Source: Cercospora beticola (Eukaryota > Ascomycota > Dothideomycetes > Mycosphaerellales > Mycosphaerellaceae). Taken from it: 64,000 bases of DNA. Each line of letters starts with the position of its first letter. The stretch's first letter is position 1. Location of the stretch: assembly GCF_033473495.1 (NCBI RefSeq), contig NC_088938.1, positions 2,418,001-2,482,000 of the forward strand, given 5' to 3'. Below, in pieces: positions 4,968 to 22,380 of this stretch. The notes beneath the pieces are model-generated. The model worked only from the letters and a program-made list of their open reading frames with translations. It had not been told where the DNA came from and did no database searches. The position numbers and the translations under genes are program-made.

Positions 4968-6759
4968 ATGAAGTCCATAACGTGCAGCATACTAGCAACA
5001 GCACTTACAGCTGCTGCTCAAGGTATAGGGCTAGTAACTGATGATTTTCCAATTGTGGATCTGGTGAGTGCGAAATGTGGTCGTTGTGATATGTATGCCT
5101 GCTGACTTTGTTCACAGGGCTATGCTCGGCACGCCCCTACGAAAATCAACCAGACTACACTGAACAAAATATCATACGCAACCTATTCCAACATTCGCTT
5201 CGCGCAGCCTCCCGTCGGTGCACTGCGTTTCCGGAAACCAAAAGTCCCTCCACCATACGCCGAAGGAGTCCAAGATGGCGTGATATCACAGAATGAGACG
5301 AATTGCATACAGTCCGTACCAGGATACTTCACGTCCTTACCAGGCTTGAATGGAACCTCATGGGGACAAGAAGACTGTCTGTTCCTGGATGTCATCGTGC
5401 CCGAAGGTGTAAAGCAAGGCTCCAGCGTGCCAGTGCTCCACTGGATTTATGGTGGTGGCTTTTTCTTCGGAGCTAAGGATACTGGAGGAAATCCGGCGGC
5501 GTTGTTCGATCGCATGACTGCAGACGACAAGTTTGTGATTGTGGCATCGAATTACCGGCTTGGAGTCCTTGGCTGGAGTGCTGTAGAGGGAGAGTCTGGC
5601 ATAGATGCGAATGCAGGTTTGTACGACTCCCAGGCTGCGTTGGAATGGACTCGCGATAATGTGCATCGTTTTGGTGGGGACTCAAATCAAGTCACGGTCA
5701 TGGGCCAAAGTGCGGGAAGTGGCATTATCGAGCATTTGCTAGCCGCAACTAGCGAAGGCCAGAGACCATCTTTTCAACAGGTAAGTGAAACGAGCTCCAT
5801 TCTCATTGTCAAAGACTAATAGCTGCACGAAGGCTATTCTCTCCTCTCCCGGCTATCGCCCACATGTCAATCGCTCCATCGAGACACTCGGCCTGTGGCG
5901 TGAATTGTTGAATCAAACCAAGTGCACCGATTTCGACTGCGTTAAGAAACTACCAGAGACAACCATCGCTGAAGCAAACCGGTATCACTACCTCGAAGCT
6001 CCGTCTGGTGGATTTCCTGGTTCCTCGATCTCTTACGGGCCAGTCATAGATGGAGATCTGGTCAAGGACCTTCCCGAACGCGTCCTGCAACAAATTAGTC
6101 AGTTTTCACCAGCTCCACCGAGCTATGTGAAACGAGTTATTGCAGGTGATATGAAGAAAGATGGAGCAGCTTCCACGATCGGCGACTTCACTTCTTGGGC
6201 AGAGCAAGTTTCCGTGTTTGCACGAACGCCTTCGAATGCGACCATCTCAGCGATCGAGAACCTCTACGGGCCATTCAATGGATCCGGATCATCGTTTCGC
6301 GAGGATGGGTCTGTCGAAATGACTCCATTCGATACCTTCTCGGGGGACGTGATCTTTGCTTGTCACTCCCATTTCGTGGCCGAAGCCTTTGCTGCATATC
6401 GTGCAAGTGGTCACTGGCCAGGGCTGGACAGTGAAAGCTACCGCTACGAGATGTCAATCCAGCCGGCAGTACACGGCCAGGACATCAGCTATTACTTTTT
6501 TGATGAGATCGTGGCGGCCCTGGATCCCACCGTAGAAGAATCTGTTGCAACAGACTTGCAGCAAAAGTTTCGAGACTTTATCATGGGTCGAGAAATGGAG
6601 GGTTGGCCCGAGTCTACCTCGAGTGGGGGCGATGCTCGAGATTGGCTGAACATCACTGCAGATGGCCTTGTTGCTGTCGAGCAGGCCGATGAGGGTGATC
6701 GTCGGAAAAAGTGCCGAGAGATTGTCTCATTGTACGGGAACGAGGCGGATGGGTGGTGA
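4968..6759 (+). CDS. Secreted type-B carboxylesterase/lipase
   Basis: Three exons, 4968-5063, 5118-5780 and 5833-6759, encode 561 residues. The start MKSITCSILATALTAAAQG is a signal peptide. The carboxylesterase type-B order follows: substrate-side motif RFAQPPVGALRF, EDCLFLDV, oxyanion-hole IYGGGFFFG, nucleophile elbow VMGQSAGSG (Ser), and the late HGQDISYYFF (His). Such enzymes hydrolyse ester bonds of lipids or plant and xenobiotic esters outside the cell. The acid member of the triad, usually Glu in a NEG-type motif after the GPVIDGDLV segment, seems to be KDG (Asp) here in GDMKKDGAAS. The substrate cannot be told from sequence. The family call is secure; the Glu-to-Asp reading is an eye alignment. 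Confidence 0.88.
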
Positions 6760-6906
6760 GCTGAGCGGACCGGCCATAAATAGTGACCGCGATATATAAT
6801 TCTCGATGAAACTTGCCCCTGAGCACAGTGTACATCTCGAAAGAGAGGGCACGTCCCAGGAATAGACTTTTGACAGGAGGAAGGAGGAGGGAGAACTCCG
6901 CACATG

Positions 6907-6914
6907 GCGGCAAG
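6907..6914. repeat. Left target-site duplication of the 13-kb element
   Basis: GCGGCAAG here and ACGGCAAG at 19920-19927 directly flank the inverted ends; seven of eight bases match. This is consistent with an 8-bp duplication in which one copy mutated, or with a 7-bp one. Confidence 0.6.
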
Positions 6915-6947
6915 ACGGGGGCCGAAACCTTAGTGGTTGCCACTACG
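6915..6947 (+). repeat. Left terminal inverted repeat
   Basis: Thirty-one of 33 bases match the reverse complement of 19887-19919, including a perfect 28-bp core that begins GGCCGAAACCTTAG. Beyond 6947 similarity falls off quickly. Confidence 0.8.
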
Positions 6948-6978
6948 AATTTCGATCAAAACACCTACGTAAACAACG

Positions 6979-7026
6979 CTATTACCACCTCTATCACCAC
7001 CTCTATTACGCCCTCTATCACTCGCA
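6979..7026 (+). repeat. Four imperfect 12-bp tandem repeats
   Basis: Four copies of a CTCTATCACCAC-like unit lie just inside the left inverted repeat and ahead of the integrase-like frame. Subterminal repeats of this kind are often transposase-binding sites; that role is inferred from position only. Confidence 0.5.
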
Positions 7027-7039
7027 ACACACTCGCAGC

Positions 7040-8750
7040 ATGCCTCGCTATACTGTCGATTATAGTTAATAGTATAACTTTATTAAGGAACGCGTAGAGG
7101 CAGGTATACCCCGAGCTACTATCGTTTCTAAGCTCGCTGCCGAGGGCATTATAATATTAACACGCACTCTTAGCCGTACTATATCAAGCTGGAACGTTTT
7201 GTACGGCAGTTAAAGGCCTAATTAGCGTCTTAATAATAAAGAGAAGCTGCGACTACGTATTGTTTAGTTATATTACTTTATACGTACTACCGACGCTAAG
7301 GCAGCGGAGATTCTTAAACTAGAAGGATTCGTAATCGGTGCCTACCGCTATAGTATTATACGCAAAGAGATAGGCTTATAGAAGCGCAAATATAGTACTA
7401 AATAAGAAGAAGAAGAAGACCGGATTATCTAGCTACTATAGGTTAAACTATAGAAGTCTATAGTAGAGTCGTTTAGTAGGCGGAATCTATATACGTATAT
7501 AAGGATAAAGCATAATATTATTAGACGGTTTAAGCCCTCTGTACTACTATTATAGCGTTAAGCGCACCGCTAACGATTCTAGTAACCGTATATACGCCGC
7601 TATCCGCGACTTTAACTCTAAGGGCCTCCGTAAGCGTACCGAACGAATCTGCGAACACTATAGCGCTATTATTACGCCTAGACTATTCTATATACTATTA
7701 ATAGACGCATACTATAAATTCGAGCATTAGGGTATCTAAATCTATACTACGATTAATATTTATTTATGCTATATCGTATAGATTTATATCGGAATTACTA
7801 GCCGTATAGCTGTCTTAGTTCTCGCTTAATACGTCTATACTCTACGCGCGACAAGAACAGTACTATAGATAGTTAAATCTAATCGTAGTATAGAGATAAT
7901 CCTAGCTACTAATACCTATTATATAGTTCGTATAGCCTACTACGAATAGGAGCAGAATCCGGACGATACGCCGGTATACCTAACATTTAACGAGGTGTTT
8001 AAATACGGCACTAGTAAGATAAATTAGCGTATTAAGGCATAGTAGAATTAATAGGCACCTGCGCTAGAAGGCTAGAGGGCGTACTTCTACGAATTAACCG
8101 ATAATAGACACTTTAACGACAGATCCTTAGCGGATAAGATCGCGTTTCTCGCGATATATATACCGATTATACGGCACGAGGTTTATTAGTTTGTTAAGGT
8201 TTAGAACTACTATCGTATTCGGAAATAGGCGAAAAGGCCGCATAGTATTCTAGGTATTCTATATAAGCTATTTAACTACTCTTAGCTTTATTAGGCTAGC
8301 TACTAAGGGCTGCTACTACCTAAGGGTATATTAGATAGTATTAAGGAAGAATTGAAGGATTTTAGTAAGGCTACTCGTAGTAATAGTGTTAAATACTCGC
8401 TAATCCGATATGTATAGACCTTAACGCCTACCTACCCTAGGATATACTATAATAGTACTACGAGGCAATACAGCCGCACGGCTTTAAGCTGCTAATTAAT
8501 AGTAGTGCGATTAACTCTAACGGTAAACGCCTTCACCGCCTTGCTTATATATAACTACGTAGTTTAATTGCTAATTATATAGCCTCTAATTAACTTCCAA
8601 TTCTAGCCGAGCTTAATAAGCCGCTAGTAGCTCGTAACTAGGTACCTCTACGCTACGTTAAACGAGCGTTTAGAGCCGCTAGTAATTAGCCGATTATTAA
8701 TAACGATATAGGGTTAGTAGAGTTCGCCGACTACCTATAATATATATCTC
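7040..8750 (+). pseudogene. RIP-decayed integrase-core (DDE) protein of a fungal mobile element
   Basis: One plus-strand frame can be followed from ATG at 7040 (MPRYTVDYS) to roughly 8750 through many TAG/TAA stops and no clear frameshift. Early parts read FIKERVEAGIPRATIV and EILKLEGFVIGAYR. Then comes an integrase catalytic core: LLIDAYYKFEH, INIYLCYIV, SNRSIEI, and later LADKIAFLAIYIPIIRHEVY. This pattern matches fungal integrase-core-domain proteins of the kind grouped in PANTHER PTHR46177 (from memory). The first acidic residue (IDAY, about 7703) remains. The second Asp reads Asn in SNRS (about 7881) and the Glu reads Lys in RIKA (about 8033), both G-to-A changes. It is certainly non-functional. 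The 3' end is approximate. Confidence 0.7.
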
Positions 8751-8999
8751 CGGCACCGCGAGCTACGATAGTTCTAGCGTATAAGATAGCGTAGAAATCT
8801 CTGCGTACCCCGCTATAAACTAACGCTTCTATAGCGCTACGGTATATTCTATTCCTCTACTATTTCTTAATCTACTAGCGAGCCTCTAATACCTTACCCT
8901 ATAACGCTAATACTATAAGCAATAATAGCGGCATATAGGGTACCTTCTATGCTATTAATAGCAATAACTATACTAGGCTATATAGCAACTATGCCTTCT

Positions 9000-10310
9000 G
9001 CGGCGTATACGGCTTAAGGAATCCAAATCTGCTAACTAAATAGTTCCGACGCGAGGCTTCTACGTACCTAGGCGCTAGCAACGCTGCTAGTAGCGCTATA
9101 ACTATAAGTATACCGGAACCTCCGGGGTATTAGTTATTTGCTAGAATTCTATTATACGCTAACGACGTACGCAATACTACGAATATACGGTATAAACTAC
9201 GGCCTTCCGCGAACGCTAGTTCTAAGCCTCTGTCTTATCGTAAACTAATACCTATAGTAGTAGCTTAACCGCAGGTAGGGCCGGTTAAGAGGTATAGCTA
9301 CGGTATTTAGCTATATACGTAGGCGATTAATATTAAGCTTAATAAGGATACCGAGATATAGTACTACGCTAAGGTTAAAAGCTATAACTTTATAATAGAA
9401 GACCTATTTACTAATAAGGAGTTTAATAATACTAATACCGACCTTCTAGCGTTTATTATCGACCGCCTTCCGCGAGAGGAGTTTAAGGCCTATCTACTAT
9501 AGAGTATTAAGGAGTTCTACGGTATTATATTCTTTAAGGATTTTAACGACGATACTACTAAACTAACTATAATTAATATACAAGCCTAGTAGTATAAGGA
9601 TATTAAGGAAGCAATATACGCCTTTAAAACTCCGAGGACTACTATACCCTATACCTTTAAGGTGCTCGTTTAAACCTTAACGATAGATAAGCGTATAAAG
9701 AAGCGCAAAGAACGTACTACGAGTATAGTAACTAGCGAGCCTACGAGTCGTTATAGCAGCGTTGTTCTATCTATTAAGAACGATACGTTTATTAAGACTA
9801 AGAAGCCTTCCTTTATAGAGATAGTTTCGAACTATAATAACCTACCTACGACAATTAATTTAACTAGCAATACTATAACGGTGCCTACTACGTTGCCTAC
9901 TACCGTGCTAGCGGTACTAGTAGTGCTAGTAGTGCTAGCGGTACTAGCGCACGATATAGAGGCCGATAGTGCAGTTAATTAGAACGCTAATTAAAGCGTT
10001 AATTAAGAGGCTAACAAGGTAGCTAATTAAGAGCCTAACTAGCAAAAGAAGGGTAATAAACAACACTCTAAGGTAGCCGATTAAGAGGCTAAGAAGAGAG
10101 CTAATTAACTAGCTAAGCGTTAAAGGATAGAGGTATTACCTATATATATATCTACTAGGAGTACTACGAAGAAGAACTAGTATAGCTTAATACCGTACCG
10201 TAGTATACTTATAGGTAGAACCGTTGTTTAGAGGTATACTAGGGTTTATTTAGAATACTAGAGGCTGTATTTAATAGTATTTAAGACTAGGGGAATAGTT
10301 ATAGAGGCAG
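9000..10310 (+). pseudogene. Second RIP-decayed frame of the outer element, unknown function
   Basis: A single plus-strand frame (codons starting at positions such as 9449) runs for over 1 kb broken only by TAG/TAA. Readable blocks include FIIDRLPREEFKAYL, SIKEFYGIIFFKDF, a basic KRIKKRKERTT and a late acidic/Ala/Asn-rich repeat with EAKKRAN. No catalytic motif is recognisable. The preserved frame with stops at presumed Gln/Trp codons argues for a former protein rather than chance. Start and end are approximate; the tail overlaps the end of the minus-strand frame described separately. Confidence 0.45.
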
Positions 10311-10680
10311 AAACTAGAGTATTAAATTAAACGACTCGTAGTTATAGCGTTACTATTTAAATAGTAACTCGCTATTAAGCTATAGGCTCTTTACGCTCGC
10401 TATTAGGCTACAAACCCTTCTATAACGCGTAAATGTCTTTAGCCTTACTATTAGCCTTAGTACGTAGCTATTCTAACTACTAATCGTACGTCTTAATCTA
10501 TTTACTATATCTAGCTACCTTCTCGTTTAATATAGCGTTATTAGCCTCTAGCATAGTTACCTTATCCTAAAGCTTAGCTAATATACTCTCTAGTATAGCG
10601 AGTCGCTCCTAGGTATTAGTAGTACTACTATCTTTACTACCCTCCGTATCCTTAGGAATAGCGTTTCTAGCTTAATAACT

Positions 10681-10685
10681 ACCTT
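10681..10685. repeat. Target-site duplication ACCTT of the Copia element (left)
   Basis: ACCTT precedes the 5' LTR and recurs at 16760-16764 immediately after the 3' LTR. Confidence 0.85.
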
Positions 10686-10916
10686 TGTTAGAAAGTGCAG
10701 TCTAGTTAGATATTCTAAGAGACACTTTAGGAATTAGGATTAGGTAATATAGGTTATATAATACTAAGTTATATAACCTAGCTAATACCTATCTTAGGAG
10801 TAAGATATAACCTATAACTAACTAATATAATTAACTCGGTTAGTTCCTACTTATTATCTCTACTTCTACTATATTATACCTATCCGACGAGTGCCTACGA
10901 GAATACAAATTTAATA
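10686..10916 (+). repeat. 5' LTR of the Copia element
   Basis: Starts TGTTAGAAAGTGCAG and ends AATTTAATA, the last bases probably a RIP-altered TAACA. It is nearly identical to 16377-16598, differing mainly by CA/TA and TG/TA changes. Confidence 0.88.
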
Positions 10917-10931
10917 GGTTATAAGCCCGGG
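10917..10931 (+). promoter_or_regulatory. Primer-binding site of the Copia element
   Basis: GGTTATAAGCCCGGG directly follows the 5' LTR. The same 15 bases directly follow the 5' LTR of the second element (minus strand, 18997-19011). The complement CCCGGGCTTATAACC looks like a tRNA anticodon arm with a TAT anticodon, so priming by a tRNA fragment is possible. Confidence 0.6.
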
Positions 10932-10949
10932 TTTATAGAGAGGCTCTAA

Positions 10950-13900
10950 GTAGAAAGAGTTAGCCTTCTTATCCTTAAAGTAATATATATTACCTCTTAT
11001 AGGACCTATAGTATTAACTAGATAGAGAAGCAGGAAAAGAGTATAAGGGAGACTAGAGGCATATCCTATCTATACTACCTTAAAGCTTTAGAAGATCCTA
11101 GTTATAAGCTAGAAGTCTCTAAAGGGTAGGTAAGATAGAGAAAAGCCTAGTAAAGCATACTCTACTTTAAAAGAGAGGTATACTAAAAGAGTATAAAGAG
11201 GAAAGGATTAGCCTTAGACTATAGTACTTAAGTAGATAAGACTAGGCCTAAGTACTAAGTACTACTAATACCTTAGAACTAGCTAGTAGTGCCCTTCTAA
11301 GAAAGTAGATCTTTTAGAGGTTCTCTACCTAAGAACCTAACTAACTCCTATAAGAGAGAAGAGTCCTTAGATACCTTAGCTAAGAGAGAAAAGTCTTAGT
11401 AACTAGAGAAGGCAGAAATCTAGAAGCTACTAATTAGATTAAAAGAGCTTATATTTCTAGAGTTTAGATTTGTTTGTTTAATTTTATAAAAATAGATTTA
11501 ATAAGTAGAATTAAAAAGAAAAGAGCTATACTAGTACTAAGTAAGGAGAATTAGAAATAATAGTTTAGCCTACTATAGGACTACCTTAAGTTAAAGGATA
11601 TATTTTAGGTTATCTTAGAACTAATACCTAACTTATCTATTAAGTTATTACTATCTGTCTTTAGCCTAAAATATTTAAGAAACAACCTAATATAGGTTAA
11701 GGCTAATATAACTACTAGGTATAAAATAATAATCTGCCTATTAGAAGATAACTAGGAAAAGGTCCTTAAGAAGAGATAAGCCTTAAAGATATAGGAGAAG
11801 ATAAGAGCTAAGTATAGCAAGGTATATACTATATATATAATAGTATATATCTAGGAGTTTATAAACTTTTAGATAACTAAGGATATAATAATTAGAAAAG
11901 TATAGGTATAACTAGCTAGTATAGCAAGAAGGATTATAGAGGTAGACCCTTAGGAAGTATACTATAAGGAACTAGAGAGAAGACTTAAGTATCTCCTTAA
12001 TAGCTTGCCTAAAGTATACTAAAGCATAAAGGACATAATCCTTACCTAGTAGTCTATAGTATATAAAAGTATACTATAGCTACTAGAATCCTATAAAGCT
12101 AGACTAAACTAGTCCTAAGAGATAGTAATATTTGCTAAGGGCAGAGGTATATAATATATAAAGCTAAAATACTACCTTTATAGAGAAGAGTATTTTAGAA
12201 GTATTACTAAGTATCTATACCTTAATAAAGCTAAGAGAACTATTAACTTAAGATAGGCTAATAGAGTAGAGAAGAGAAGATTACTACCTAGAGAGAGTAC
12301 CTTTAGAAGGAGATCTTTACTAGATAGAGAAGTATTAAAAGAAATAGTAAAGAAACTTAACCTAAAAGTCTAATCCCTTAAAAAGAGACAAAGCTTAAGG
12401 AAGTTTTCTAAGAAGGTATATACTACCTAAGAAGATATAGAACCTTCTATAGTATCTAAAGTATCCTAATCTCTATTAGAGGATAATAATATTAATAAAG
12501 TTATATACTTAACTATAGAAGCAAAAGGCAAGTATATACTATTAAGGTAGCTACTTAACTCCTATGCTTTATTATATATAACTAACTAGGAATTACTTTT
12601 TAGAGAACTAAAACCTCTTTAGAGGAAAAAGTAGATTAAAGTTAGGAGTAGCTACCTAATAGCTATATATATAGGAAGTATAGTAATAGGTAAGAAAAGA
12701 GGAAAATAGATTGTTCTTAAGAATGTTCTCTTTATACTAAGTCTAGGAGTAAATCTTGTTTCTTAGAGCTAATTTAGCTAGTAGTATAGTGTTTAACTAC
12801 TAAAATTTATACTTGTTTTATTATCTAGGAAACTAGTTATCTAGACAAAACTATTAAGAGGAGTACTATTTATTAAGGAGATTAATAATATATTATAGGA
12901 GCTTGTAATATTATACTTTAATTAAAAATAAAAGAATAAAGCCTATACCTTTAAAGTCTAGAAAAAGACCTAAGAATAGTAGGAGCTTTAGTATAGGAGA
13001 CTTATATATTTTAAAGAGAGTCTTCTTAGAAACCTATATAAAGTGTCTAACTTAAAGGCTTAGATTCCTATTCTAAAGGAATACTAACTTTATAGAGTAT
13101 ATTCCTTAGTAAAAATAAAGAAATATAGAGAGAAAGAAACTAAGAGGAAACTATAAAAGTTATCTCTAGTTTCTATTAATATCTATAGTCCTTTGCCTAT
13201 CTTAAGATTAGGATATAAATAGTAGCTTAAGATTATTAATAACTTCTTAAGAAAGAAATAGACTTTCCTAATAAAGTCTAGAGAAGATATACTAAGTATC
13301 CTTAGAGACTAGAAAGTAAAAGCTAAGCTATAATCGAGAAATCCCCTCTAGATTATAAGAAGTAATAGAGCAAGAGAGCTTCTTACTATACTAAAGTAGT
13401 AGGAGAAGGAATATAGAATTTCCTTCTATATAACTAAAGTATATAACTCTATCTAGAATAGAGTAGTTAAGAGGTTAATCTAAACCTCTAAAAACTATAT
13501 AAGAGCAATACTAGAAGATGCCTATATACCTATTAAATTCTAGCTAGAAGCTTTAGTAGCTTATTTAGTTATTAGAAATTCCCTTCCTAATAGCCTAGAA
13601 ATTAATAGATTTAAGGTATTATCTAAGGAAGCCTTTTTAAGTATTTAACTCTTAGTATTATACTTTAGAGTTTAGAGTTGCAAAGCAGTAGTCTATATAG
13701 ATCCTAAGTCCTAGCTAGTAGGAATAAAATTAGATAAACTAATAAATAGAAGCAAAGATACTATATTTATTAGGTATATTCCTAATACTACTAAAATATA
13801 GCTCTTCTAGGAGCCTAATATAAGAGCTATTAAAGCCTATAATACTACTACTTAGTTTAAGTATAAGAAAGGAGGAGATATAGAGCTAAATATTCCTAAG

Positions 13901-16140
13901 CTTAATTAAGTAAGTAGTATACCTATTAGAAACCTAGTTAGTAGACCTCTAAAGAAGCTAATAGTAGTTATACCTTCTATAGCTACTATATCTATAGCTA
14001 TAGTAACTAAACCTATAGGTCCTAGCTAAATACTCTTTATATAGTTACTACCTCTACTAAAGGATAAGGAGGAGTACTAGAGAATAGAGGATCTAGAAGA
14101 AGAAAACTCTAGGGAACTATAACTCTAGTAGGAGAAAAGTAGAACTACTAAACTACCTAAGCTAAGCTAGGAAGTTAATAGATAAGCTAGTCCTAGTACT
14201 AGTAGGAGACTATATTCTAAAGCAAAAGGATTAAATATTATATAGTAGGACCTATAAGGAAATAGGGATTAGAAGAGGAACTAAGACTAAACCTATAGCT
14301 AAAAGAGAAGGAGATCTATCTTAGATAAAGGACTAGGCCTAGAGCTAAAAGCCTATAGTATAGTAATAAAATAAGTACTTTAGAAGAAATAGAGAGAATA
14401 TAGATAGGAGGAGGAGCCTAGTACTAAGTATTATAAGGCATTCCTAAGCTAAGTCTAAAGCTAAGAATAGGAGTAGATTTAGGAAGCCCTATTAGAGGTT
14501 TAGGAGTCTATATTTATAGCAATTGCTCCTTAAGTCTCTATATAGAGATAAGAAGTACCTATTCTAAAGTCCTATAAAGAGGCAATTTAGGATCCTAAAT
14601 AGAGATATATATAGAAGGATATAGTCTAAAAGGAACTAACTATATTAAGAAGTAATAATACCTAAACAAAGGTTATTCTACCTAAAGGAGTAAACCTTAT
14701 TATATCTAAATAGGTATTTAATATAAAGAGATTAATTAGTAGAGCTATTAAGAAGTTTAAGGCAAGACTAGTTATAAGAGGTTTCTCTTAGAAGTTTAGA
14801 GTTAATTTCTAGGAGACCTTTATACTAATAGTTAGGTATAATACCTTAAGAGTATTTATAGCTATAGTTTATAAGAAGGATCTAGAACTCTACTAAGTAG
14901 ATATAAACAATATATTTACTAAGAGCAAACTTAAAGAAGAAATCTTTATAATTCTACTACTAGGAGTTAAGATTCTACCTAATATAGTCCTACAAATCCT
15001 AAGAAGCTTATATAAACTAAAGTAAGTAGCAAGAGACTAGAACAAACTCTATATCTTAAAGTTAAAACAGATTAGGTTTATATAATTAGAAGTAGACCTA
15101 TACCTTCTTATCTACTAGGAAAGGAACATTCTAATCCTAACCTATATAGATAATATTCTAATTATAGTACTAAAGCTAGAAGATATACTTTAGTTTAAGG
15201 AATAGCTAGGTAAGGTATTTAAGATTAAGGATCTTAGAGAACTAGAGAAAATCCTTAGGATAAGGTTAATAAGAGATAGACAAGCTAGGATTCTAAAGCT
15301 TAATTAGGAATACTTTATTTAGGAGAACCTTATAAAGCTAGGAATAACTAAGGAGATAGCTAACCTAACTCTCTTACTAATAGATAGTTATAATAGCCTA
15401 AAACTAATAGGCTTATATAATAAGAGAGGGAACAAGACAGAGTACTAAAGCTAAACTAGTACCTAGATATAGCCTATAGTTATAATAAGACTAGATATTG
15501 CTTTCTCTCTTAGAAGGTTAAGCTTATATATCTTAGACCCGACTAAGAGGCATATATAAGCTCTAAAGAAACTAGCAAGATACCTAAAGTTATCCTAAGA
15601 CTTAGGATTAATATTTAGGAGAAATAGAGGAAGCCTAATAGGATATTTAGACTCTAACTATATAATAGACAAAGCAAACAGAGTCTTAATCCTTAGGAGC
15701 ATCTTCTTCCTTTATAGAGCTCTAGTTTCTTAGATAAGCAGGAAGCAAAAGTCTATTATAATATTAATAATAGAAGCTAAGTATATAGCTATAAATATAT
15801 ATATAAAGCAATCTTAGTTCCTAGTAGTACTCTTAAGGGAGATAGACTATATAGAGTTAGTAGGAGAATACCTATTCTAACTAACTATAAAAGCATATCC
15901 TAATATAGTAAAAGAGCTAAGGCTAGTACAAATTATAGGAGACAACTAAGCAGCTTTAACCCTTATTAAGGATATATATACTTATAAGAGATCTAAATAT
16001 ATTAATATTATATATAACTATATTAGACATCTCTAGCGGCAGAGGAAGGTTATAGTAGAATATATTCTAACAAAAGAGATAGTTGCTAGTAGCCTAACTA
16101 AACTAAAGAATAGGCTATAGTTTTAGGAGTTTATAAAATA
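10950..16140 (+). pseudogene. Copia Gag-Pol, RIP-decayed
   Basis: Readable blocks in order: integrase-like segments about 13.2-13.9 kb (FLIKSREDI, then RELLTILK). Reverse transcriptase at about 14.7-15.2 kb has FKARLVIRGFSQKF, YQVDINNIFTKSKLKEEIF and LTYIDNILII, where the catalytic YVDD box has become YIDN. RNase H at about 15.75-16.1 kb has IIEAKYIAI, AALTLIKDIYTYKRSKYI and a final LTKLKNRL. Numerous TAG/TAA stops replace Trp and Gln. The gag portion before 13 kb is too degraded to follow with certainty. The element cannot encode active enzymes. Confidence 0.8.
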
Positions 16141-16376
16141 ACTCTAACTTATATAAGGAAAGGCAAAAGATTCTAGCCCTAAAGAGATTAGTTCTAAGCG
16201 GAGGAATAAGATATATAAATAGAAGAAAGTAACTAGAAAACCTACCGCTAGGGTTTTTAGTTAGAAACTCTATCGATAGGGTTTTTTAGTCGTTTTAATC
16301 TAATTCGTATAGCTATATATAGGGATAGACTTAAATATAAGAAGGCAGGCAGAAGACTACCTAGCCTAAGTAGAAG

Positions 16377-16759
16377 TATTAGAAAGTGCAGTCTAGTTAG
16401 ATATTCTAAGGGATACTTTAGGGATTAGAATTAGGTAATATAGGTTATATAATACTAGGTTATATAACTTAGCTAATGCTTATCTTAGGAGTAAGATACA
16501 ACCTATAACTAACTAATACAATTAACTCGGTTAGTTCCTACTTATTATCTCTACTTCTACTATATTATACCTATCCGACGAGTGCCTACGAGAATACAAT
16601 TCAAAACTAGGTTATATAACCTAGCTAATACCTATCTTAGGAGTAAGATACAACCTATAACTAACTAATATAATTAACTCGGTTAGTTCCTACTTATTGT
16701 CTCTACTTCTACTATATTATACCTATCCGACGAGTGCCTACGAGAATACAAATTTAATA
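16377..16759 (+). repeat. 3' LTR of the Copia element with a 153-bp internal tandem duplication
   Basis: It starts TATTAG (a TGTTAG with TG-to-TA change). The segments 16453-16605 and 16606-16758 are near-identical in tandem, and only the second has the proper LTR end followed by the target duplication. So this is one LTR lengthened by duplication, not an LTR plus a solo LTR. Confidence 0.8.
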
Positions 16760-16764
16760 ACCTT
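16760..16764. repeat. Target-site duplication ACCTT of the Copia element (right)
   Basis: Matches 10681-10685 exactly. Confidence 0.85.
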
Positions 16765-16885
16765 TGCTATAGCGCTTGCAATAAGCGTAGACGGTCTTAT
16801 TATCCTTATTTAATACTATATATACTATATCGTAGTTCTTACGCGTATACTAGCGACACGGATTCGATACTACTATTCCTTTATT

Positions 16886-16890
16886 AGTCT
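16886..16890. repeat. Target-site duplication AGTCT of the short LTR element (left)
   Basis: AGTCT lies directly before the left LTR and recurs at 19228-19232. Confidence 0.85.
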
Positions 16891-17106
16891 TATTAAATAT
16901 AGGAGTCTAACCTGTCTAGGTATAGCGGAATAAGGCAAAGTGAAACCCCCTATAGTAAGTAGTTAGAGAGGCTTAGGTTGCTATCTACCGTAAGCCTACA
17001 AAGAAATACCCTCTGCTAAGAATTCCTAAAGCCTAAGGTACTACTTGCCTAAAGCCTAACTATTAGATAGAGAGATATAGTATCTATAGAATCTCAAATC
17101 GTAACA
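16891..17106 (-). repeat. Left LTR (3' LTR) of the short element
   Basis: Starts TATTAAATATAGGAGTC (RIP-type variant of TGTTAAATATAGGGGTC) and ends ATCGTAACA; near-identical to 19012-19227. Confidence 0.87.
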
Positions 17107-19011
17107 CTCCCTCTAATAGCCTATCTCTTAATAGCTAGTTACCTTTCCTTAGTCTTATCCTCTATTATAGCAAAGGCCCTTGCCTTGCCTATATCTCTAA
17201 AAGCTAAGACTATACTTCTTGTAGGTTCTAGATACTAATAGCTTAATAGCAAGTGTCCCTTCCCTTAATATAGAGTGCACTGCCTAGCTTTAAACAACTC
17301 TAAGTTGTCTGTCCTCTTTCTCTCTTATTATTGTCTCTATATAGCTCTTATAGTATAAGCTAAAGGCTCTAATCCTCCCTCTAGTTTAGGTTACCTAGGT
17401 ATCCCTACTTCTTTCTCTTCTAGAATAGAAAGGATATTATTAGGTAATAAGTATAGTTAGGCATCTATAGTATCTCTAATAGATAACTAAGATTTAGGTA
17501 GGCTACTAAGCAGAACTTAGATTCTGTTCTTAGGTTTAACTGCCTCTACTATTGCTAGCTAGGCCTCCCTTATCTTCTTCCTAAGTAATAGTAAGCTTAA
17601 CTATACTTGTAATACACTCTATAAACTTGTTATTTAAAAGGTAAAGTACTGCTATACTAGTTTCCTTCCTAATGCTTTATTATCCTTATACTTCTTCTTT
17701 AGCTCTTACTAGATAGCCTTTGCTATCTCTTTCTCTAATACTACCTCTTTATCCTCTTTACTAATATAAAGCTAAATCTAGTAGATTGCTTTATAGTTTG
17801 CCTTGTTAGTTATTAGGATAGATATTAAGGTCTTAATAGTTAAGTATAGGTCTTCTCCCTTAAGGAATATAGCTATCTTTCTAAACTATTATTCTAAGTT
17901 CTCCTTAGAGAGTACTAGATATAGTCTCTTTACTAAAGTACTATTTATCTTGTCTTATTCCTATCTTGTCTTCTAAAGGGTTAACTTTAGGTATATATAT
18001 TACTAAGTTCTTCTAACTATAGCTAAGAAATAAATTTGTTTTATATAGTAAACTAGGACCTATATATCTTGGCATTCGGTTCTTAGTATATATATAGGTA
18101 GAAATTCCCTTATACTAGATAGACTATCTAGTAGGGGATTAACTATGCTAAGACTCCTCTCTCTTAGCTAGAGCTTATAGGACTCTATCTTCTAGGTAGC
18201 TCTAGGGCAGGCATTATACCCTAGGCCTTATATATAGCATATATGTTAATAGCTAAAGGAGTATACCTCTCTAGTACCCTCTAGTATAGGAACCTCCTAG
18301 TGCTACTATATTTATAACAAAGGTAGGTTTATAACTCCTCTTAATCTTAGGTATATTAGTTTGTCTAACTAGGCCCCTAGGGCCTAATTGTCTAATCCTC
18401 CTTTAGATTCTAGGGATAGTAAGAGGTTTAGTTAGTCTCTAAAGTGTTATTAGCTAATAGCAGGTCTCTCTAGAACCTGCCTTGTAACTATCCTCTCTAA
18501 ATATAACCTGCCTAGTATAAACCAATCCTCTAGCCTTATAAGATCTTCCTTTAAATAGGTAGTAAGTTCTATCTATATAGCTGTCTTTAGGAGACTCTTC
18601 TCCCTCTAATAGCCTAACTACTCTTCTAACTTTGTCCTCTTCTGCTTTCTAGTAGCAGGGAAATGCTAGACTAACTCCTAGTATTGTTAGACTATAACTT
18701 TTGTTTACTAAGCACCTAGCCTAGGTGCCTTATAGGGTTTGTTCTCTGTCTTTATATAGCCGTATAGTATGTCCTTCTACTTAGGACTAATATATATTAG
18801 ATATCCTATCTACCTATATATACTATTCTTTCTACTATCTAGTTTGTGCCCGCAAGACTACTCCTCTTGCTTCTAACTCTTTTATAGCTTTAGATCCTAC
18901 TATTGCCTTTAAGTCTCTTACTAGAGTACTTTAACTCCTACCGGGAGTACTTACTATTATATCCTCTAGCTCCTAGCTTTCCGGCTACGATGCAAACCCG
19001 GGCTTATAACC
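17107..19011 (-). other. Internal region of the short LTR element, no coding motif seen
   Basis: About 1.9 kb of AT-rich sequence rich in CTCCCTCTAG-like and TATAG-like strings. I could not follow a reading frame on either strand. At 18997-19011 the minus strand carries the 15-bp primer-binding site, and the sequence further in (TTTGCATCGTAGCCGG on the minus strand) is less decayed than the rest. Confidence 0.5.
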
Positions 19012-19227
19012 TGTTAAATATAGGGGTCTAACCTGTCTAGGTATAGCGGAATAAGGCAAAGTGAAACCCCCTATAGTAAGTAGTTAGAGAGGCTTAGGTT
19101 GCTATCTACTATAAGCCTATAAAGAAATACCCTCTGCTAAGAATTCCTAAAGCCTAAGGCACTACTTACCTAAAGCCTAACTATTAGATAGAGAGACATA
19201 GTATCTATAGAATCTTAAATCGTAACA
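19012..19227 (-). repeat. Right LTR (5' LTR) of the short element
   Basis: Starts TGTTAAATATAGGGGTC and ends ATCGTAACA on the plus strand; 216 bp, same length as the left copy. Confidence 0.87.
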
Positions 19228-19232
19228 AGTCT
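19228..19232. repeat. Target-site duplication AGTCT of the short LTR element (right)
   Basis: Matches 16886-16890 exactly. Confidence 0.85.
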
Positions 19233-19886
19233 CTATAATCCTACTAGCTACTAAATACTTATTAAGGTTATTTCTAGCCGTCTTCTTTAGCTACGACTCC
19301 TTTACTATAGCTTTATATAGCTAGGCTTACTATTTATTAGGTAGATAGAACTAGAAGTCGGAAGGGTTCGTAGTAGTAGAGTAGCGGAGGTTAAGAAGAA
19401 CGGGGTCGATAGCAATAGTACTAAAACATTAATAAGTATACTATAAGTATACTACGAGGTAGATTTAAACCTATAGTTTAGTAGCCGTCTTATTCTCTAT
19501 TTTAGTAAATTAAGTTAATTCTAAGATCTCGCTAGCAGCTCGTTCTAGCGTCGGTAGTAGTAATTACGCTAGACGTTTGCGCCTATAAAGAGGTTATTAG
19601 TATAATAATTTACGTCCGAAGATAGCTAGGTACGTACGACGAGCGTATAGTGCGTACTATAGACTAATTATAGAATAGTATCGCGAAAATAGTATCGAAC
19701 GCGCTGCGGCGGAAAGCTTATAGCGGAGGTAGTAGTAGGCGACGAGGTAATATAGACCTCGAGCGCTATTGTTTAGGCGTACAATGAACTGCTAAATAGG
19801 CTGTTTAATGCGACAATGCGACAGCGACAATAGTAGTTGCTATTGTAGTCAATAAACTAAGTAAACACTAAGGTAGAAGCGAATTA

Positions 19887-19919
19887 CGTAGTGGCAACCA
19901 CTAAGGTTTCGGCCTCCAT
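19887..19919 (-). repeat. Right terminal inverted repeat of the 13-kb element
   Basis: Reverse complement of 6915-6947 with two mismatches. It is followed by ACGGCAAG, the right direct repeat (19920-19927). Confidence 0.8.
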
Positions 19920-19927
19920 ACGGCAAG
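19920..19927. repeat. Right target-site duplication of the 13-kb element
   Basis: ACGGCAAG, seven of eight bases shared with 6907-6914. Confidence 0.6.
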
Positions 19928-20360
19928 CTCCCGAAGCAAGCGCGCCAAGGAGACGTCGGCCAGCAAGCCAGATCACTGATGTGGCTTCTTACACTTTGCA
20001 CAATCACACCACCGCAAGAGCGCCAAAAGCAAAGTCTTCGCACGATCGTGTAGGTCCAGCAGCCGCTCTCTCAGGCTGAGCCCATGTAACAGGCCAAGTG
20101 ATGCATACTCATCGCTTTGAATCGCTCGCCTGCGAGATCCCATCTTGCGATATTCACATAGACAAAATGATACGCAAGTCAAGTCCATACCGTCCGAGCT
20201 CACTGCGCTAACTGTAGAGTTCTATTGCGTCTGGTCTAACAGACGCCACAGCTGGCCATGCCGCGAGTCTGGGTCATCTGATTGCCCTTATAGGACGTAG
20301 CTTTTCTCGTGCGCTTCTCAATGGGCCACGACCCATTTCCTTCTTCCCACAAGCTCAATC
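19928..20360. other. Intergenic, no recognisable gene
   Basis: Base composition returns abruptly to a normal mixed composition after the element. Only short overlapping ORFs occur; the stretch probably holds the promoter of the PAN-domain gene. Confidence 0.5.
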
Positions 20361-21745
20361 ATGCGTCTTCTGGTGCTTCTTACAGCATTGCTGCCGTCTC
20401 TGGGGGCCTTCGCTGCCACTTTGGAGCATTCGCACAGCGACAGTCTCGTTGAGCAGCCTGAGAAGCGCAACTACTATCGGCCGACCTGTGGCATCTCTGG
20501 TTATCCGAAGAAGACGTACAAGCCCTACAAGACCATCCGCCGCTGATGCAACCAGTCGCAATGCTCTGCATATTGTAAGCAAAGCTCCAAATGCAAAAGC
20601 TATGCTTTGGGCAAGCAAGATTGCCTTCTCTACTCGGTCTCGGTCAAGGACAATGTCAAGAGTGGCTATGGGGCAACGTACAAATTCTACGACAAGTCCT
20701 GCCCATGCCCAAAGCCGAGTGCGACCAAGACAACGTGAGCAAGACTGAGAGTGTTCTAATGCGCGCGCACTTACTGAAATCGCGTAGGACTGCGAGGACT
20801 ACAACAAGATCTCAGACTACTTCGCGCACATCGACGAAAACGAGCACTACTACTGCAGTCTCCGAAAGCACCACTACAGCTACAGTCTCCGCGTTGACTA
20901 CCTCGGCGGCATCGACCACCACGGCCAGTGGAAGTACCACAAGCAGTGTCAGTGTCAGCTCTACTTCTAGCGACGCTACCACAACTAGCGCGAGCTCGAC
21001 TTCTACCGCCAGCAGCACTTCTAGTGCTACTACTACTTCAGTAACGACCACGGCCTCAACTACGTCCACCACCTCCTCTTCTCCATCCACCACCACGACA
21101 TCGATAACCACAACCACGTCTTCTTCAACGACTACAACTTCGTGAGCAAAATCGCAACCATCATTTGGCTTTGACTCTCACTAATCTTTGAGGTCTTTTA
21201 GCAGCACAACGACTACAACAGTTGCGGCCAAACAGACGGGCAATATTAGACTAACTGATGAACGCAACAACATGCAAACCGAGACTGGGGCTGTCCTGGA
21301 CAGACCAACCAATGTCGATCCGGCTGCCTTCATTTTCGGTGAGCTTAGTGACGCCGTGGGTACCGACCAGTATGTCTTTGATCCTGCCGATGGATCTCTG
21401 CAGGTTCTCAAGGCCGATCGTGCCCCCTCCACCATTGGTCAATTTCTTTACTACGATCCAGTGACTGCTGGATTCGGACCACCCAACGGAGGAGGTGTGG
21501 TTTCTTATTTAGTCGCCACCACCGAGGCAGATGCAGCAGCGAGGAATGGCCAGAAGGCTGTGTGTCAGATTTCATCGGCTTCACAGGTAGATTGCGCGTT
21601 CGGCCCAAGCACTGTGGCAGATGTATGGTTCTGTGCAGGATCGATCGCTCTCGTCTCGCAGGGTCGCGATCCAGGGGAACCTTGCGACGGCCTTAGTATC
21701 ACAACAAAAGTGACAAGCGTCGTCTTCAACACGCCTGCTGAGTAA
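20361..21745 (+). CDS. Secreted PAN/apple-domain protein with Ser/Thr-rich linker; interrupted by in-frame TGA
   Basis: Exons 20361-20734, 20788-21141 and 21202-21745 join in phase to 424 codons. A signal peptide (MRLLVLLTALLPSLGAFAA) precedes a PAN-like domain: RPTCGISGYPKKTY, then CNQSQCSAYCKQSSKCKSYAL and DCLLYSVSVKDNV, ending YKFYDKSCP. After it come about 150 residues almost purely Thr/Ser (O-glycosylated cell-wall or secreted linker) and a C-terminal domain of about 170 residues with four Cys, not recognised. Inside the PAN domain the codon at 20544-20546 is TGA (CGC CGC TGA TGC), the expected place of an ordinary residue; CGA-to-TGA is the simplest origin. The gene is therefore a recent pseudogene, a polymorphism or an error. 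Extracellular role, ligand unknown. Confidence 0.68.
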
Positions 21746-22380
21746 ATTGTTGTACTGCTACCTAAGTTCAGTCGGAAAAACATCACACAAAATTGAGCAT
21801 CTATGGGTCGCTATTCTCTGATGACAGTACATCTAAATGGGTTCGATAGCAGATGGGGGAACTGTATAGTTAGTTGTTCTACATCGAATACAAGAATGCA
21901 CTCAAATTTGTAACAGGTTTTGGTTAATGCATGATGTATGGTTGCCTCGAGCGAGTCCGACACAGCTGCGAAGAATGGCCAAAAAGCTGTTTCCAGACTC
22001 ATGTCGTCTCCAAGCGTACAATGGTAGGTTGGCACGAATGGGGTGGTCGTATCTGGGGCTTGTGGCAGAAATGTTGCTCTTGTCGCTCCAGCCTACGACC
22101 CGACTGAAATTTGCCGCCCATATAGTGCTGCAACGACGGATCATCTAGCAGAACGTAGCTTAAGTGCTTGCATGCCGTCTTGAAGAGTTGGTGGCATGCA
22201 GCTTGAAATTTACGAAAATCAATACTACAACATCTGGAATGCTTCGTAAGTAAGAATCCAACATGTGGAACTCATGCCGTTGCAATAATAAAAAATAGAC
22301 ACAGGATATATATTGCAATTTGTAAGGACATGTGGCGAACGCCTTGCATAATTGGCTATCACGACGCGAAGCGTTGTCCA
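21746..22380. other. Intergenic, no recognisable gene
   Basis: Short ORFs only, overlapping on opposite strands. The last part flanks the tRNA gene and may hold its upstream transcription signals. Confidence 0.5.

Follow-up and report, generated by a model that had tools for sequence, protein, structure and literature searches.

A dead DNA transposon, very probably of IS3EU type, and its convergent Cys-cluster/coiled-coil gene in Cercospora beticola

The element and its ends

The stretch of DNA considered here, a window of 64,000 nucleotides of the Cercospora beticola genome (contig C4:2418001-2482000), contains a DNA transposon with the ends GACGG...CCATA, which occupies positions 6914-19920 and carries, facing one another, the remains of an integrase-type transposase gene and of a gene for a Cys-cluster/coiled-coil protein. 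Two long terminal repeat (LTR) elements are inserted in it, and 4,586 bp of transposon sequence are left when these are removed, in agreement with the approximately 4.6 kb of the original prediction for this locus. The copy in the window is designated A, and three others, designated B, C and D, were found in the genome, of which 36.07 Mb in 10 contigs was searched and for which all copy counts are lower bounds. The features at the two ends are:

6908-6913 (no strand): left 6-bp target site duplication, CGGCAA
6914-6954 (plus strand): left terminal inverted repeat (TIR), GACGGGGGCC..., with 36 of 41 bases matching the right end; this left end recurs in copies B, C and D
19880-19920 (minus strand): right TIR, ...GGCCTCCATA, from the inverted-pair scan and the comparison of the arms
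19921-19926 (no strand): right 6-bp target site duplication, CGGCAA

The end pair of copy A ranks top among the 166 inverted pairs of positions 5000-22000, with 92% over 38 nt; the runner-up of the same length reaches 82%, and a shorter one, of 26 nt at 96%, is situated within the LTR elements. The 33-bp inverted ends first described are indeed present, with 31 of 33 bases identical, and over the true ends, 6914 and 19920, the arms pair at 36 of 41 bases. The 8-bp direct repeats reported outside them, matching at 7 of 8 bases, are the same repeat taken two bases out of register, the duplication being a perfect CGGCAA on both sides, and the 8-bp register is perfect in none of the copies A, B and C.

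That this is one mobile unit, as had been proposed, is borne out by other copies that share both ends and the target duplication. The search for the ends elsewhere in the genome recovered the left end at C1:1704190, C1:1373183 and C2:2303701 (B, C and D, respectively), and right ends at C1:1726639, C1:1450420 and C2:2321497; between them, the BLASTN pieces follow the order of the window over 22 kb in B, 77 kb in C and 18 kb in D, and A to D share, as far as each was read, the succession of left end, transposase, convergent-gene region and right end. A second family comprises a copy on contig C6 (L037) and another on contig C10 (31.5 kb), and a miniature inverted-repeat transposable element (MITE) of 686 bp on contig C5 (L038:2975-3660) carries the two end types of the element. 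Bases 57-453 of the MITE stretch used as query also match its own other strand, at 78%.

The flanking duplications are perfect in A, in B (TTGCGC), in C (GGAAAG), in the MITE (GGTCCG) and in the C6 copy (CTCGGC), agree at five of six bases in the C10 copy (TCACTG/TCACCG), and are missing in D (CACGTG/TATATA), that is, five perfect, one nearly so and one absent among seven copies, so that the further copies foreseen by the original prediction exist with duplications of 6 bp and not of 8 bp. The left terminus is GACGG in all seven; at the right, A and the MITE have TATGG, B to D have TATAG, the C10 copy TAAGG and the C6 copy TGAGG. In the left part, transversion differences amount to 0.1-0.4% among B, C and D, to 3.2-3.4% between A and these three, to 1.1% between the C6 and C10 copies, and to 13.4-15.7% between the two groups; because of these distances, at least three families or subfamilies are recognized on sequence grounds, each with at least one copy bearing a perfect 6-bp duplication.

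An alternative explanation is that the two ends come from different elements joined by nesting, which the lack of a matching duplication in D and the span of the copies, from 13 to 77 kb, could be taken to favor. This is extremely unlikely, given the perfect duplications of A, B, C, the MITE and the C6 copy, and the order of the parts, which is constant from A to D as far as each was read.

The transposase gene

The left side of the element is occupied by the transposase gene, the parts of which are:

7040-7527 (plus strand): exon 1, N-terminal part, akin to a Clr5-domain protein encoded on contig C9, riddled with stops by repeat-induced point mutation (RIP); no Pfam match
7528-7582 (plus strand): putative intron 1, 55 bp, GTTTAA...GCTAAC...TAG, with GTTTA and TAG conserved in six of six aligned copies
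7583-8364 (plus strand): exon 2, DDE integrase core, Pfam rva_4
8365-8417 (plus strand): putative intron 2, 53 bp, GTAAGG...GCTAAT...TAG; in A, B and the C10 copy, TAG is kept in three of three and GT in two of three
8418-8908 (plus strand): exon 3, from codon-position bias and conservation in the C10 copy; it opens the "unknown gene" of the original prediction
8909-10381 (plus strand): continuation of the exon 3 frame, open apart from TAA and TAG; C-terminus of the transposase or a second gene

The integrase-core gene that had been predicted is supported by the rva_4 match in exon 2; its frame had been taken to begin at 7040, and the core sits in a different one. The first change of frame is common to A, B and the C10 copy, copy C differing by the gain of 8 bp in a TA repeat, and the second, at 8365-8417, is also present in the C10 copy. 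With splice phases that are consistent at both sites, the sequence would correspond to a transposase gene with two introns. Programmed frameshifting, which occurs in bacterial IS3, was considered for these changes and rejected, since they coincide with GT...CTAA...AG stretches common to the copies; copy C appears to be in frame solely through the gain in its simple repeat.

The match of exon 2 to PF24764 (rva_4), a family with a cut-off of 26 bits, reaches 29.4 bits and an E value of 8e-7 with W in place of TAG, and E values of 0.0019 and 0.017 with Q or X there; this is the sole integrase family listed at E values up to 5. The first catalytic D is kept; in the second column, 58 residues further, B and C have D, and A and the C10 copy have N. 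Each of these four copies, which are those read, shows K in the third column, so that the E expected there is presumed.

As RIP does not produce transversions, these were used as a measure of coding constraint. In the predicted frames, the counts at the three codon positions are 40/25/92 for exon 2 (p 5e-11), and exon 3 has 17/11/35 (p 6e-4). They come from 12 segment pairs that are not independent, the p values being nominal because every pair includes copy A; the pair of A and the C10 copy alone, over 7762-8726, gives 24/16/47 and 9/7/20 in the two exons. These are signs of past coding constraint on both.

Exon 3 and the C10 copy share 37% identity in frame over 8393-8908, and from 8909 onward the conservation of frame with the C10 copy has a score of 191, compared with 70 at most in shuffles and 84 for the next pair of frames. 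The density of stops in this frame is the lowest of the six in six of nine windows of 8900-10399. Since the C10 copy has a 1-kb repeat inserted at 8908/8909, the earlier state is probably that of A, where the join is uninterrupted. The sequence from 8909 to 10381 may be either the tail of the transposase or a second gene, and since the third exon opens the "unknown gene", two genes may suffice for the element. Of the three genes originally proposed, the integrase-core and Cys/coiled-coil genes stand, and the one between them reads at its start as part of the transposase.

Sequences related to the N-terminal part of the transposase carry stops in 11 of 12 matches, the twelfth being the gene on C9, which has no core, and the intact relatives of this part match Clr5 in Pfam. 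With stops read as X, Pfam gave no family in the six frames of 7001-10690 and one match below the cut-off in nine frames of the right side; with stops read as Q, the "unknown" frame and the convergent gene gave only matches below the cut-off. The PDB searches gave nothing meaningful.

The convergent gene and its intact relative

On the opposite strand, the second gene is preserved in three pieces, scored here against an intact relative on C6:

19228-19524 (minus strand): Cys/coiled-coil gene, 5′ piece, score 81 (shuffle maximum 42)
16761-16892 (minus strand): middle piece, with the Cys cluster, score 110, unshuffled; its last two bases, 16891-16892, belong to an LTR element
10380-10685 (minus strand): 3′ piece, heptad-repeat part, score 65 against a shuffle maximum of 54, the weakest of the three

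Copy C contains matches to all three pieces of the gene, and D to its first part. Their order is kept in the alignment to C6:652048-652983, an open frame 311 codons long, which confirms the convergent Cys/coiled-coil gene that had been predicted. The protein of this open reading frame (ORF), the start codon of which is uncertain, has the pattern C-x2-C-x8-C-x10-C-x2-C-x7-C, with a long coiled coil after it. The middle piece in the window covers five of the Cys columns, with two Cys and three Tyr, and Tyr in these positions is as expected from a change of TG to TA. The many matches of the C6 protein to coiled-coil families were given no weight.

The C6 ORF is single-copy and has neither stops nor traces of RIP, and the genome search gave, apart from it, only three decayed copies of the element. 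Approximately 330 bp upstream lies a TIR-like stretch that matches at 23 of 28 bases, and the ORF is oriented with respect to it as in the transposon (C6:651693-652983, L049:494-1784, from the TIR-like end through the ORF); in background sequence amounting to 121.6 kb over both strands, the same search gave no match. The 6-kb stretch of C6 that was read, with 0.5 kb of it upstream, contains no second TIR-like end at up to 8 edits and, at E values below 0.4, no match to the transposase. These features suggest, as the preferred reading, that the C6 ORF is a domesticated helper gene of the transposon. It is also possible that a gene of the element was stranded there by chance, or that this is a host gene related to the source from which the gene of the element came.

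When the genome was searched with the convergent gene, 59 matches were obtained, the majority of them to the last 40 or so residues of the query; these were set aside, because the query extended there beyond the element, into a repeat that is abundant and unrelated; matches covering earlier residues lie at C6:2794168, C1:1385893, C7:1237033, C1:858177 and some other positions.

The N-terminal part of the transposase also has an intact relative, the Clr5-domain gene CB0940_12140 (C9:66689-67189, minus strand; L026:1114-2142), the protein read there being identical to that of CB0940_12140 of Cercospora beticola (100%) over 87% of the query. It is homologous to the transposase part (25%, residues 2-170, E 4e-11) and has no stops, no RIP and no DDE core. 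A search with its protein gave four matches at E values up to 0.001, with relatives at 80% and 78% in C. zeina and C. zeae-maydis; no TIR was found around the gene in the 10 kb read, and no match to the protein in viral contigs. Tentatively, with somewhat less than an even chance, the C6 helper ORF may have been kept as a working host gene, and then, together with the Clr5 gene of C9, both proteins of one kind of transposon would have been domesticated. The TIR-like end beside the intact helper gene makes such an event testable.

Inserted LTR elements and decay by RIP

The two insertions that interrupt the element are:

10686-16759 (no strand): LTR insertion 1, LTRs 95.5% identical, with an additional partial LTR on the right side
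10681-10685 and 16760-16764 (no strand): 5-bp duplication ACCTT of insertion 1, perfect
16891-19227 (minus strand): LTR insertion 2, 2.3 kb, LTRs 95.8% identical
16886-16890 and 19228-19232 (no strand): 5-bp duplication AGTCT of insertion 2, perfect

Insertion 2 would lie on the minus strand, because it has, next to its right LTR, a 26-mer whose complement is found next to the left LTR of insertion 1. Both insertions had been recognized beforehand, and the perfect 5-bp duplications, as well as copy C, which is continuous across both sites, support them. Relatives of insertion 1 occur in A to D, and relatives of insertion 2 in A, B and the C6 and C10 copies, in each case at differing points, and copies have grown up to 77 kb (C) and 31.5 kb (C10). 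The C10 copy also contains an abundant repeat of about 1.02 kb (L036:5704-6720); of 197 candidates in the genome, 40 were scored, with some 40 near-full matches.

The RIP indices of 6915-10690 (TA/AT 1.99, (CA+TG)/(AC+GT) 0.25) differ markedly from those of 20000-60000 (0.55 and 1.32), TA/AT ranges from 1.9 to 2.2 across the four parts measured, which marks strong mutation by RIP, and all the transposase copies found are broken by RIP. The CpG content is 0.3-0.5% in the LTR insertions (10686-16759 and 16891-19227) and approximately 6% in the older surrounding transposon, CpA and TpG being depleted in both; the nested DNA thus shows two mutation spectra.

Nature of the element

Taken together, the element is very probably a dead, RIP-mutated cut-and-paste DNA transposon of IS3EU type, and it belongs to a known kind and not to a new superfamily. 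It shares with IS3EU an integrase-type DDE core, albeit partial, the 6-bp duplication and TIRs longer than 30 bp, and it is labelled IS3EU-type, and not a strict member, because its left end is GA and not TA. The earlier view that no named superfamily fits is not supported, since IS3EU does so by its core, the lengths of duplication and TIR, and most of the terminal motif.

Several observations weigh against this assignment. The left GA of all seven copies departs from the TA..TA termini of IS3EU, and copy D has no duplication. The rva_4 match covers only profile positions 97-171 of 194, exceeds the cut-off solely with TAG read as W, and has no counterpart in the Pfam scans of pieces of B, C and the C10 copy; the third catalytic column is K in the four copies read. 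Protein searches with the broken integrase frame and the "unknown" frame gave nothing at E values up to 0.001, and the genome-wide search with PF24764 gave no match, which says little because the window's own copy also went undetected. Besides the dependence of all transversion pairs on copy A, no codon-position bias appears in exon 1 (p 0.34) or in 8909-10381 (p 0.40), and the presumably non-coding leader used as control, 6950-7039, is skewed too (6/15/1, p 0.001), the same few changes being counted in three pairs. The single-sequence fold of exon 2 had a pLDDT (predicted confidence) of 37 and was not used.

The original prediction took these features for those of a TIR superfamily that would be new, characterized by three genes and duplications of 8 bp. 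The left GA, the failure of the broken frames to find a homologue, and the Cys/coiled-coil partner, not mentioned for IS3EU in the available excerpts of PMC12730594 and PMC10045372, would speak for it; nevertheless it is quite unlikely, because five of seven copies are perfect in the 6-bp register and none of A, B and C is so in the 8-bp register, the core matches an integrase, A and the MITE have a right end that conforms to the IS3EU motif, and the supposed second gene begins as a transposase exon. It is very unlikely that the element belongs to Ginger, hAT, MULE or KDZ/Zisupton: Ginger has integrase-like transposases, and hAT and Zisupton have duplications of 8 bp, close to the number first counted, but the excerpt of PMC2836005 gives Ginger1/2 duplications of 4-5 bp and TGTNR ends, in contrast to 6 bp and GACGG/TATGG here, the 8 bp of KDZ/Zisupton and hAT are not found, and rva_4 is the only integrase family among the matches listed.

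The N-terminal part of the transposase would have bound the TIRs, and the DDE core would have cut the ends and joined them to the target DNA with a 6-bp stagger, the repair of which would have created the duplications. The Cys-cluster/coiled-coil protein could have been a dimerising DNA-binding helper, the MITE would have moved in trans, and movement would have been by cut and paste. Afterwards, RIP would have broken the transposase copies found; the LTR elements are later insertions.

Comparison with known systems

IS3EU has been in Repbase since 2013, and its complete families, in the part of PMC10045372 available, always have TA..TA termini and usually 6-bp duplications. The rust families described in the excerpt of PMC12730594 have TAYGG..CCRTA as their ends, TIRs of more than 30 bp and 6-bp duplications, and in them the gene for an alpha-kinase is oriented oppositely to that for the transposase. 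The element in Cercospora is like these in its integrase-type DDE transposase, long TIRs, 6-bp duplications, right end TATGG, and second gene opposite to the transposase (alpha-kinase in TET-bearing fungal families, according to the same excerpt); it is unlike them in its left GACGG, in place of TAYGG, and in the Cys-cluster/coiled-coil protein encoded by its convergent gene. The Pfam scans of the element frames, which are heavily decayed, gave no alpha-kinase and no TET/JBP.

GingerRoot, likened by description alone, also has 6-bp duplications and an integrase-related transposase, with termini that are mostly TA..TA and occasionally TG..CA (PMC10045372, excerpt), unlike the GA of the left terminus here. 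The titles and beginnings of abstracts searched describe no IS3EU element in Cercospora, Repbase and supplements being outside that scope.

Zymoseptoria, the host of Styx, belongs to the same fungal family as Cercospora. Styx of Zymoseptoria tritici, an active element of 7,927 bp placed with IS3EU, has, in the excerpt of PMC10853768, TIRs of 36 bp, examples of 6-bp duplications, an integrase and four ORFs (transposase, GATA, CCHC and DUF3577), and it is called IS3EU in that of PMC9970103 too. It is the closest described element, likened here by description alone: both share the IS3EU assignment, long TIRs, 6-bp duplications and an integrase gene, and they differ in that Styx has 7.9 kb and four ORFs and is active, whereas the Cercospora element has 4,586 bp and two or three genes and is dead. 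The families presented here would be IS3EU-type elements of two or three genes in another leaf-spot fungus, and they offer, at the level of description, a comparison for Styx.

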